The translations under genes were made by a program, and so were the position numbers. The notes below the pieces were generated by a model, which made no database searches, was not told the DNA's origin, and saw nothing but the letters and a program-made list of their open reading frames with translations. From a virus, in IMG/VR virus record IMGVR_UViG_3300029319_000369, positions 1 through 27,888 of that record: a stretch of 27,888 bases of DNA. The stretch is one strand, 5' to 3'. This document shows positions 11,572-17,204 of this stretch, piece by piece. Position 1 is the stretch's first letter. Every line of letters begins with the position of its first letter.

Positions 11572-11835
11572 ATGAGAGAAATAAAATTAATAGATCAACT
11601 CAAAAGAAATGCTAAGTATGAATTTTTTTATGACTATTTAAATCTAATTGAAATTTCAGATGATATGGTTTTAAAAGAAATGTGGCAAAATGTAAATCTG
11701 ATTGATGATTGTACAACTATTCAAGAACTTAAAAATATTAAGTTTGTTGAAAAAGAGTTAAATGGAACTTTTAGTTGGGATGCAATTGAGGATCACAAAA
11801 ATAATAACTTATTTGTTAAGGAGGAAATAAAATGA
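11572..11835 (+). CDS. Small hypothetical protein (87 aa) before the annealing protein
   Basis: A GAGGTGG site precedes the ATG. The product is mostly helical and acidic, MREIKLIDQLKRNAKYEFFYDY through EMWQNVNLIDDCTTIQELKNI, with a C-terminal FSWDAIEDHKNN. Its last codons (GAGGAAATAAA) provide the ribosome site for the next gene, and the stop overlaps that ATG. No family recognised. Confidence 0.5.
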   Translation: MREIKLIDQLKRNAKYEFFYDYLNLIEISDDMVLKEMWQNVNLIDDCTTIQELKNIKFVEKELNGTFSWDAIEDHKNNNLFVKEEIK

Positions 11836-12383
11836 GTGATGATCTAATTAAAAAATATAATTTAGAAGAACAAGATTTTTGGACTTTAAGAGATAATAAA
11901 ATTATATCGTTTGACGGAGTTATTAAGATTATAGAGGCAGAAAACATTAAGTTTGAAATGTCTGATAATCTTGATGTATCGCCTAGTGTAGCAATCAAAG
12001 TAAGAGCATATCAAGAGAGTGATGAACTTGGTTTGATTGAGGAAATAACTTTTGGCGAGGCAAATGATAATAATTGCAAAAATCAATACTATTGGGCAAT
12101 GGCAGAAAAAAGAGGTAAAGCAAGAGCAACCTTGAAATTGCTAGGTTTGTATGGTAAAAATGCTTTTTATACTGATATAGAAAGTGATGATTGGACTATG
12201 CAAAAACCTACGATAAAACAAATTGAGGCAATAGATCGTTTAGAAAAACAAGCATTGGATAGTGGTGTATTAGGTAAAGACGCAAGACAATGGTTAAAAG
12301 CAAACAAAAATGGTATTAGAAACAATATTGATGTTTACGAAAAAGCAAAAGCAAGTCTTAAAAATCATCTTGGTTTGCAATGA
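11832..12383 (+). CDS. Putative single-strand annealing protein (ERF/Rad52-like)
   Basis: The protein has 183 residues. The N-terminal domain contains FDGVIKIIEAENIKFE, then SPSVAIKVRAYQESDE, and the diagnostic-looking YYWAMAEKRGKARATLKLLGLYG (about residues 88-110). This resembles the 'A.T.A.GRA...LGL' helix that ends the core of ERF/Rad52-type annealing proteins. The C-terminus (IKQIEAIDRLEKQALDSGVLGKDARQWL) resembles the tails of such proteins that contact partners. It would anneal single strands during recombination-dependent replication. Neighbours (initiator, nuclease, SSB-like protein) fit. A RecT-family or other beta-rich DNA protein is an alternative. Confidence 0.5.
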   Translation: MSDDLIKKYNLEEQDFWTLRDNKIISFDGVIKIIEAENIKFEMSDNLDVSPSVAIKVRAYQESDELGLIEEITFGEANDNNCKNQYYWAMAEKRGKARATLKLLGLYGKNAFYTDIESDDWTMQKPTIKQIEAIDRLEKQALDSGVLGKDARQWLKANKNGIRNNIDVYEKAKASLKNHLGLQ

Positions 12384-15933: not shown

Positions 15934-16257
15934 ATGTACTACAATACAACAAATGAAACAGGAAGTTTGCTAAGAAAAAAAACAAAAAAAGCAAATAATC
16001 AAAAACATAAATGCTTGTCATATTTCCAAGCAAATCCGTATACAATGTATACACCTGAAATGCTACACAATGACTTAGTCGCAACAAATGATATAAACGA
16101 AAATACACCACTAACATCAATTCGTAGAGCATTTAGCGATTTAAGTAAAGAGGGATACATAATAAAAACATCTGAAAAACACATAGGCAATTATGGTAGA
16201 CACTCTTATCTATGGGTTTTAAAAAATTATCACAATGAAAAGAAATGGAGTAAATAA
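15934..16257 (+). CDS. Winged-helix DNA-binding protein
   Basis: The start chosen is the ATG at 15934, with a strong AAGGAAGG site. The frame remains open upstream to an ATG at 15853, which would add 27 residues, but that start lacks a good site. The 107-residue product begins MYYNTTNETGSLLRKKTKKANNQ, then has YTPEMLH, PLTSIRRAFSDLSKEGYIIKTS and GNYGRHSYLWVL: recognition helix and wing of a small winged-helix domain found in many phages. It may regulate transcription or assist replication. The stop overlaps the next start (TAATG). Confidence 0.65.
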   Translation: MYYNTTNETGSLLRKKTKKANNQKHKCLSYFQANPYTMYTPEMLHNDLVATNDINENTPLTSIRRAFSDLSKEGYIIKTSEKHIGNYGRHSYLWVLKNYHNEKKWSK

Positions 16258-16484
16258 TGGCTTACGAGCATAAAGAAAATAATGGATCGTTATTTAAAAA
16301 CGATAAAAAGGAAAAACAAACTCAACCTGATTATACTGGGCAAGTTAATGTAGGTGGTACTTTGTACAACATATCTGCTTGGATCAATGAAAGCAAAGGT
16401 GGTAAAAGATATTTTGGTTTGCAAGTATCAATACCAAAACCAAAAGATGACAAGCCAATAGATCCACAAGACTTACCATTTTAA
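16257..16484 (+). CDS. Small OB-like protein with SSB-type acidic tail
   Basis: This 75-residue protein begins MAYEHKENNGSLFKNDKKEKQ, then DYTGQVNVGGTLYNISAWINESKGGKRYFGLQV, a strand pattern resembling DUF736-like or small OB-fold proteins of phages. It ends PIDPQDLPF. The last residues resemble the acidic DDIPF tip of bacterial SSB, which recruits replication and repair proteins. With an annealing protein and nuclease in the same operon, a role in handling single-stranded DNA is likely but not shown. Confidence 0.6.
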   Translation: MAYEHKENNGSLFKNDKKEKQTQPDYTGQVNVGGTLYNISAWINESKGGKRYFGLQVSIPKPKDDKPIDPQDLPF

Positions 16485-16489
16485 AATAA

Positions 16490-16588
16490 TTGAGGTAGTT
16501 TGGTATAAATGTAAACAATTAAATATAGGAGTTCACTCTTTTGTTAATAAAGTTTATGCAAATACCTGGTTGGCTACGGCTACCTCAA
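16490..16588 (+). ncRNA. Structured intergenic RNA candidate (about 99 nt)
   Basis: The gap between the SSB-tailed protein and the methylase folds by eye into one long arm. TTGAGGTAG (16490-16498) pairs with CTACCTCAA (16580-16588), 9 bp. GGTAT (16502-16506) pairs with ATACC (16562-16566). TGTAAAC (16510-16516) pairs with GTTTATG (16552-16558) with two G-U pairs. An apical AGGAG/CTCTT hairpin with a UUCA loop lies at 16527-16540. A 13-nt bulge (16567-16579) repeats GGCTAC. No T-loop or D-loop consensus is present, so it is not a normal tRNA. It ends seven bases before the AGGA site of the methylase, so it may control that gene or be a free small RNA. Confidence 0.45.
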
Positions 16589-16605
16589 AAAATTAGGATA
16601 AAACA

Positions 16606-17100
16606 ATGATAAATAAAGGACTATTTACATCAGATAAAGATGATTGGCAAACTCCTAAATGGCTGTTTGATAAATTAAATAAACATTTCAACTTTAATGC
16701 AGATGTATGTGCAAATGATGAAAACGCTTTGTGTAATAAATATTATACAAGTTATGATAGTTGTTTAGATAAAGATTGGGAGATGTGCAACTTTATGAAT
16801 CCACCTTACGGTAGAGAAATTTCTTTTTTTGTAAAAAAAGCACACGATCAATGGCTAGAAAATGATTGCACCACCGTTGCATTGCTACCTGCGAGAACTG
16901 ATACTAAATGGTTTCACAAATATATTTATTTACCTGCTACTATTATATTTATAAAAGGACGATTAAAGTTTGAAGGTGGAGAAAAATTAGCACCTGCACC
17001 TTTTCCAAGTATGGTAGTTGTATGGTGGGGTATGGGAAAAATTAACGATCAAGACTTTTTAAGCGACGAACAACTTGAAAAACTTATAAATTCAAAATAA
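16606..17100 (+). CDS. Phage DNA adenine N6-methyltransferase
   Basis: This 164-residue protein belongs to the phage N-6-adenine methylase family by its motifs: WQTPKWLFDKLNKHF (14-28), NADVCANDENALC, and the catalytic NPPY in FMNPPYGREI (65-68), then ALLPARTDTKWFH and IIFIKGRLKFEGG. Length is typical of the family. It would methylate phage DNA to resist host restriction or to time replication or packaging. AGGATAAAACA precedes the ATG. It is the last rightward gene, after a structured RNA candidate, and faces the convergent tail genes. The same frame remains open for a further 49 codons after its stop. Confidence 0.85.
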   Translation: MINKGLFTSDKDDWQTPKWLFDKLNKHFNFNADVCANDENALCNKYYTSYDSCLDKDWEMCNFMNPPYGREISFFVKKAHDQWLENDCTTVALLPARTDTKWFHKYIYLPATIIFIKGRLKFEGGEKLAPAPFPSMVVVWWGMGKINDQDFLSDEQLEKLINSK

Positions 17101-17204
17101 CGCACTATTTACGGTGTTCATACCACTTTGATCTATCACGCTTACGATATGCTATTAAGAGTGTTTTTATGGCTTTGTAGGGGTATTTTAAGAAGAAAAA
17201 TTTA

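Follow-up and report, generated by a model that had tools for sequence, protein, structure and literature searches.

The window, that is, the whole stretch of DNA analyzed here, comprises 27,888 bases of an IMG/VR virus record. Its plus strand carries the apparent early replication genes, encoding a DnaD-like replication protein, a PDDEXK nuclease, an exonuclease-like protein, an ssb-like protein, and a Dam methylase, and the structural genes are located on the minus strand; the two sets converge near 17.1-17.2 kb. The ssb-like protein (16257-16484) had no Pfam match. As the first-pass annotation had noted, most of the gap from the ssb stop to the methylase start is occupied by a single element (99 of 121 bases). 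The features of the locus are as follows:

16257..16484, plus strand: upstream gene for a single-stranded-DNA-binding protein (ssb) of 75 aa with the C-terminus DLPF (PHROG 18154, E 8e-13)
16490..16588, plus strand: whole predicted structured RNA element, class A (fold z -2.5; matched with exactly the same ends by the covariance model R1)
16490..16498, plus strand: closing stem P1, 5' strand (9 Watson-Crick pairs; 100% paired across 18 sequences)
16499..16501, plus strand: U-rich strand joining P1 and P2 (UUU in most class A rows)
16502..16506, plus strand: P2 5' strand GGUAU (5 pairs with 16562-16566)
16510..16516, plus strand: P3 5' strand (7 pairs, including U.G and G.U)
16527..16540, plus strand: apical hairpin AGGAG-UUCA-CUCUU (one G.U; 82% of cells paired in class A)
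16552..16558, plus strand: P3 3' strand (partner of 16510-16516)
16562..16566, plus strand: P2 3' strand AUACC, within the conserved CAAAUACC (class D equivalents AUACC/GGUAU and, in L497, ACACC/GGUGU)
16567..16579, plus strand: small hairpin P4 with the invariant loop UGGCU (16571-16575) and an outer pair that varies across subclasses
16580..16588, plus strand: closing stem P1, 3' strand (partner of 16490-16498, on the same basis)
16606..17100, plus strand: downstream gene for a Dam-type adenine methyltransferase, an optional cassette (PF05869, E 6.5e-31)

The four stems reported in the first-pass annotation (9, 5, and 7 pairs, and the apical hairpin) were all reproduced at exactly these positions, together with the GGCTAC repeat (16572-16577 and 16578-16583). 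The segment 16567-16579, described there as a 13-nt bulge, proved instead to be the hairpin P4 with its UGGCU loop, the most conserved part of the element. Single-sequence folds (classes A, B, and E, L402, and L362) place a short hairpin, X-G-G-U-[UGGCU]-A-C-U-X', directly 5' of the P1 3' strand; thus, the predicted fold is a three-way junction of P1, a long arm (P2, P3, and the apical hairpin), and P4. In the window, only two inner pairs and one U.G of P4 are standard, and a G.G mismatch weakens the hairpin in comparison with many relatives; P4 is also weaker in several other class A members. The minimum free energy of the plus strand RNA was -24.8, against -17.1+/-3.1 in shuffles (z -2.5), and the minus strand fold was weaker (z -1.84). 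The earlier judgment that the pairing is unlike chance was borne out, with only 3 of 200 shuffles folding as well; 6 of the 300 shuffled gaps (2%) contained a 9-bp Watson-Crick stem spanning at least 60 bases, so that the evidence from this single AT-rich sequence is moderate. It is the comparison with relatives that makes the case for the predicted fold decisive.

Relatives were gathered by an ssb protein search of viral contigs, in which the RNA sequence was not used. Every ssb relative with more than 60% identity and enough downstream sequence contained a conserved core right after the ssb stop. The family was found in phage contigs from public viral metagenomes and includes five subclasses, A-E. 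Two of these emerged from the ssb search: class A elements are window-like and about 100 nt long, and those of class B (about 120-150 nt) have an additional arm hairpin, GUCGCAGGUAANCAAYCCUG. This hairpin is also present in class C, where P1 is GGGAUA/UAUCCC; in class E, P1 is UAAGGAGGC/GCCUCCUUA. Class B elements with unrelated closing stems were found in L362 (CUGGAGUAGAU/AUCUACUCCAG) and L402 (UAACUUCCCUUC/GAAGGGAAGUUA), and the B hairpin stem of the latter is changed from GCAGG/CCUGU to GUAGG/CCUAC. These B elements and classes C, D, and E were obtained by pattern scans. The 51-kb record IMGVR_UViG_3300030102_002442 (G009) contains two class B elements (11705-11853 and 44931-45067), each after its own ssb gene, and could represent either two joined phages or a real duplication.

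Within class A (17 sequences), 90% of pairs were kept versus 39-55% with slid partners, and three pairs were changed on both sides. P3 was paired in 98% of cells, with one both-side change and additional wobble changes; the P2 5' strand is nearly invariant, hence the little covariation there, and the apical hairpin had no both-side change within this class. In whole alignments (classes B/C and D), MAFFT did not place the variable P1 correctly, and the P1 and P4 strands were therefore excised for comparison. In the 18 distinct P1+P4 strand sets taken across subclasses, P1 pairing was complete (100%), and each of the seven counted pairs had changes on both sides. P1 had also served to list candidates, although the initial class A and B sets had been identified independently of it. 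The closing stem changes its sequence completely between members and keeps its pairing, and G-C, C-G, U-A, and U.G are all found as the outer pair of P4. For the strand sets, covariation scored 0.81; shuffles gave 0.17, and slid controls no more than 0.24. The otherwise close L365 and L329 are distinguished by a double compensatory change (GGGU..ACUC versus CGGU..ACUG). Compensatory changes in the stems of relatives, which the first-pass annotation had proposed to look for, are thus present. Conservation of sequence is concentrated in P4, and P1 is variable. The non-Watson-Crick pairs of the curated helices, read on the plus strand, were 29 G.U and one A.C, a count with hand-chosen register and strands in which full pairing is partly by construction; such an excess is expected if the plus strand is the folded molecule. 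The region 16490-16588 therefore very probably belongs to a real structured RNA family and, as the comparison shows, is predicted to encode a conserved plus strand RNA with a three-way junction.

A covariance model, R1, was built from 15 class A sequences with the window left out and found the window with 114 bits (E=1.8e-24) and exact ends. In whole class E records, the elements were its only significant matches (E 6e-6 to 5e-5), as they were in L362 and most of the tested class B records (E 4e-6 to 3e-4, including both copies in the 51-kb record), in each case with exact P1 ends; the match in L515 was weak (E 0.006). By this covariance-model homology with exact P1 ends, classes A, B, and E form one family. 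R1 gave no match in class C, L402/L391, or class D records. Class C and L402/L391 are tied to the family via the common B hairpin, and class D only via CAAAUAC, P4, and junction order. Class D elements have CAAAUAC, the same P4, and the junction order P2, P4, P3, corresponding to the class A cyclic order (P1, P2, P4) opened elsewhere; at the place of the P1-P2 joining strand, they have a longer and usually U-rich strand. Their P2 pairs change from AUACC/GGUAU to ACACC/GGUGU in L497. Class D, which was found with a pattern containing CAAAUAC and P4, would rather probably be a circular permutation of the class A junction, and this apparent permutation would be instructive on how RNA folds are rearranged.

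The Rfam scan suggested in the first-pass annotation was carried out with Rfam 15 (4227 families), and no match at the gathering threshold was found in the window or in 11 related loci (L016, L032, L058, L077, L085, L344, L362, L377, L384, L402, and L410). Permissive Rfam scans of single elements returned weak, unrelated names only. No tRNA or tmRNA was detected by ARAGORN in the window or in 19 related loci, and no positive evidence was found for the tRNA-like decoy that had been considered. Among 50,697 records of named phages, blastn found no homologue of the element; the class B and class D patterns had no exact match in bacterial and archaeal genomes, and the open-access literature yielded no description of the element. 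The element thus matches no public RNA catalogue family at the gathering threshold. Matches of SPbeta phage to part of class B were short, weak, and within annotated genes and were taken as chance, and the many short-pattern matches to CAAATAC..GGTTGGCTAC were unrelated, apparently coding sequences with no convincing P1 stem and were discarded. Pseudoknot pairing of the class B hairpin loop (NCAAY) with UUGG showed no both-side change and lacked covariation support. A CsrA site at the conserved GGA and a likeness to the 3' end of 16S rRNA were not retained, the sequences being too short for a judgment.

The methylase start codon lies 17 bases past the element end in the window, a position suited to the translational switch for the methylase envisaged in the first-pass annotation. 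However, L014, the nearest relative, with 94% identity to the window on either side, keeps the element and is without the 498-base methylase block (window 16589-17086), so a methylase leader is ruled out as the main role. Downstream genes vary among relatives or are absent from the element's strand, a methylase lies upstream of the element in L416, and no conserved position upstream of a controlled gene was observed. A methylase switch is accordingly extremely unlikely. The break between L014 and the window coincides exactly with the 3' end of P1, which places the element next to a site of gene exchange. At the ends of the methylase gene, an imperfect direct repeat of 18 bases (89% identical) was noted, 16611-16628 AAATAAAGGACTATTTAC and 17095-17112 AAATAACGCACTATTTAC, and is possibly a trace of how the cassette arrived.

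The elements are always on the early-gene strand and usually start within about 10 bases of the upstream stop codon, which in class C is inside P1. The constant strand and the usual place directly after an early gene also fit a role in cis on the upstream message, and this is the main rival to a trans-acting RNA. The element would then be a 3' UTR or intercistronic structure that protects or processes the ssb message or separates it from optional genes downstream, or one that stops early transcription ahead of the convergent late genes. In L014, L027, L213, L413, L341, L250, and L414, no further same-strand feature intervenes between the element and a convergent gene. On the other hand, the class C and L391/L426 elements are inside longer same-strand gene runs, the upstream genes, although mostly ssb, also include a methylase (L416) and small ORFs, the stem is not followed by a U-tract, and an invariant UGGCU loop is needless for a plain 3' barrier. 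A cis role is conceivable but doubtful.

The preferred reading, given a probability of about 0.4 from sequence comparison, is that of an early-operon small RNA that would act in trans through P4. A self-contained RNA presenting P4 is favored because P1 is variable but always paired, the P4 loop is invariant, and the neighbors are exchanged. The 29:1 ratio of G.U to A.C and the R1 matches in classes E and B point in the same direction, as does the L362 element, which is flanked by two terminator-like hairpins. The element may be part of the early-operon transcript, forming a tail or spacer of the ssb message; P1 would set it off as a compact domain open to trimming, and the trimmed element would work as an independent small RNA. 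A partner would recognize the surface of the invariant P4 loop; this would most likely be an RNA-binding protein of the host or phage and less likely a target RNA, and the job of the element would concern the infection as a whole and not either neighbor gene. Weighing against this reading are the constant strand and placement, as well as the G.G mismatch that weakens P4 in the window; no promoter of its own could be shown for the element. A small phage RNA had been among the suggestions of the first-pass annotation, and it is supported by the compensatory changes, the plus strand G.U bias, the homologous family, and the lack of a tRNA or Rfam gathering match. A precedent for trans-acting small RNAs from phage early regions is PreS (LPR1) of phage lambda, an Hfq-dependent small RNA targeting dnaN (PMC12197685). 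PreS, about 90 nt, resembles the element in size and early-region setting and is distinguished by its Hfq dependence and dnaN target.

The location in the replication and recombination module would also suit folded single-stranded DNA serving as a replication, priming, or packaging site, from which the one-strand G.T bias could come as well. The STAXI motif (RF01728), formed by tandem repeated pseudoknots in Enterobacteriales, is likewise often near ssb genes, and both a DNA and an RNA role were considered by its authors (PMC2864571). The present element shares with STAXI the status of a candidate structured RNA near single-stranded-DNA-binding protein genes; however, it is a single three-way junction in viral-metagenome phages, is single-copy in the window, and has no Rfam gathering match, so it was not assigned to STAXI. 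The G.U pairs tolerated inside P3 and P4 suit RNA better, and the element is between operon genes, not at a fixed genome end; a DNA site is quite unlikely. Among further structured RNAs, the manA (RF01745) and wcaG (RF01761) motifs come from marine metagenomes and marine phages (PMC2864571) and appear to regulate metabolic genes, whereas the element is placed after genes, and no particular gene lies consistently downstream of it.

A nascent-RNA antiterminator acting on its own transcribing RNA polymerase, like HK022 put, would also be a structured RNA of near 100 nt in early operons, and put RNA acts alone in cis (PMC9378689). The put sites are two stem-loops within about 270 nt downstream of early promoters, whereas the element is a three-way junction, at the early-operon end in many phages, and such a function is very improbable. 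STAXI, manA/wcaG, put, and PreS were the nearest systems in role or setting found in the literature search.

Invariant nucleotides at the junction and two apparent circular permutations (A/B/E versus D) would be compatible with a self-cleaving ribozyme or a small-molecule aptamer. Circular permutation is known from hammerhead ribozymes. With no Rfam ribozyme or riboswitch match at the gathering threshold and no consistently placed downstream gene for an aptamer to control, this explanation is improbable. Rather unlikely is a new functional RNA class, either a ribozyme or an RNA capturing a host protein (e.g., a defence or translation factor), that would combine the three-way junction and its invariant UGGCU hairpin with two natural circular permutations. 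To our knowledge, few structured RNAs have been described from environmental phages. Many phages retain the element beside their replication genes despite turnover of its surroundings, and its invariant 5-base loop on a covarying scaffold offers a small, defined target for learning the roles of phage RNAs in infection.

Other structured sequences were observed after ssb. A tRNA-like sequence with acceptor-like and T-arm-like parts follows ssb in L077 (after 3267), with no ARAGORN call. In L222 (about 2056-2124), L365 (about 425-495), and L515, a second long hairpin is located between the ssb stop and the element; its stem sequence differs between contigs (e.g., GGTGTCAAGTAG..CTGCTTGACACC and CTGCCAGGTG..CACTTGGCAG). 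Many of the more distant ssb relatives (L056-L093) have other structured-looking intergenic sequences after ssb (GGGGAAAGCGYAAGTGAGTACCCACTAACTT..AGGAGT and a longer form), which suggests that this spot often holds RNA elements.
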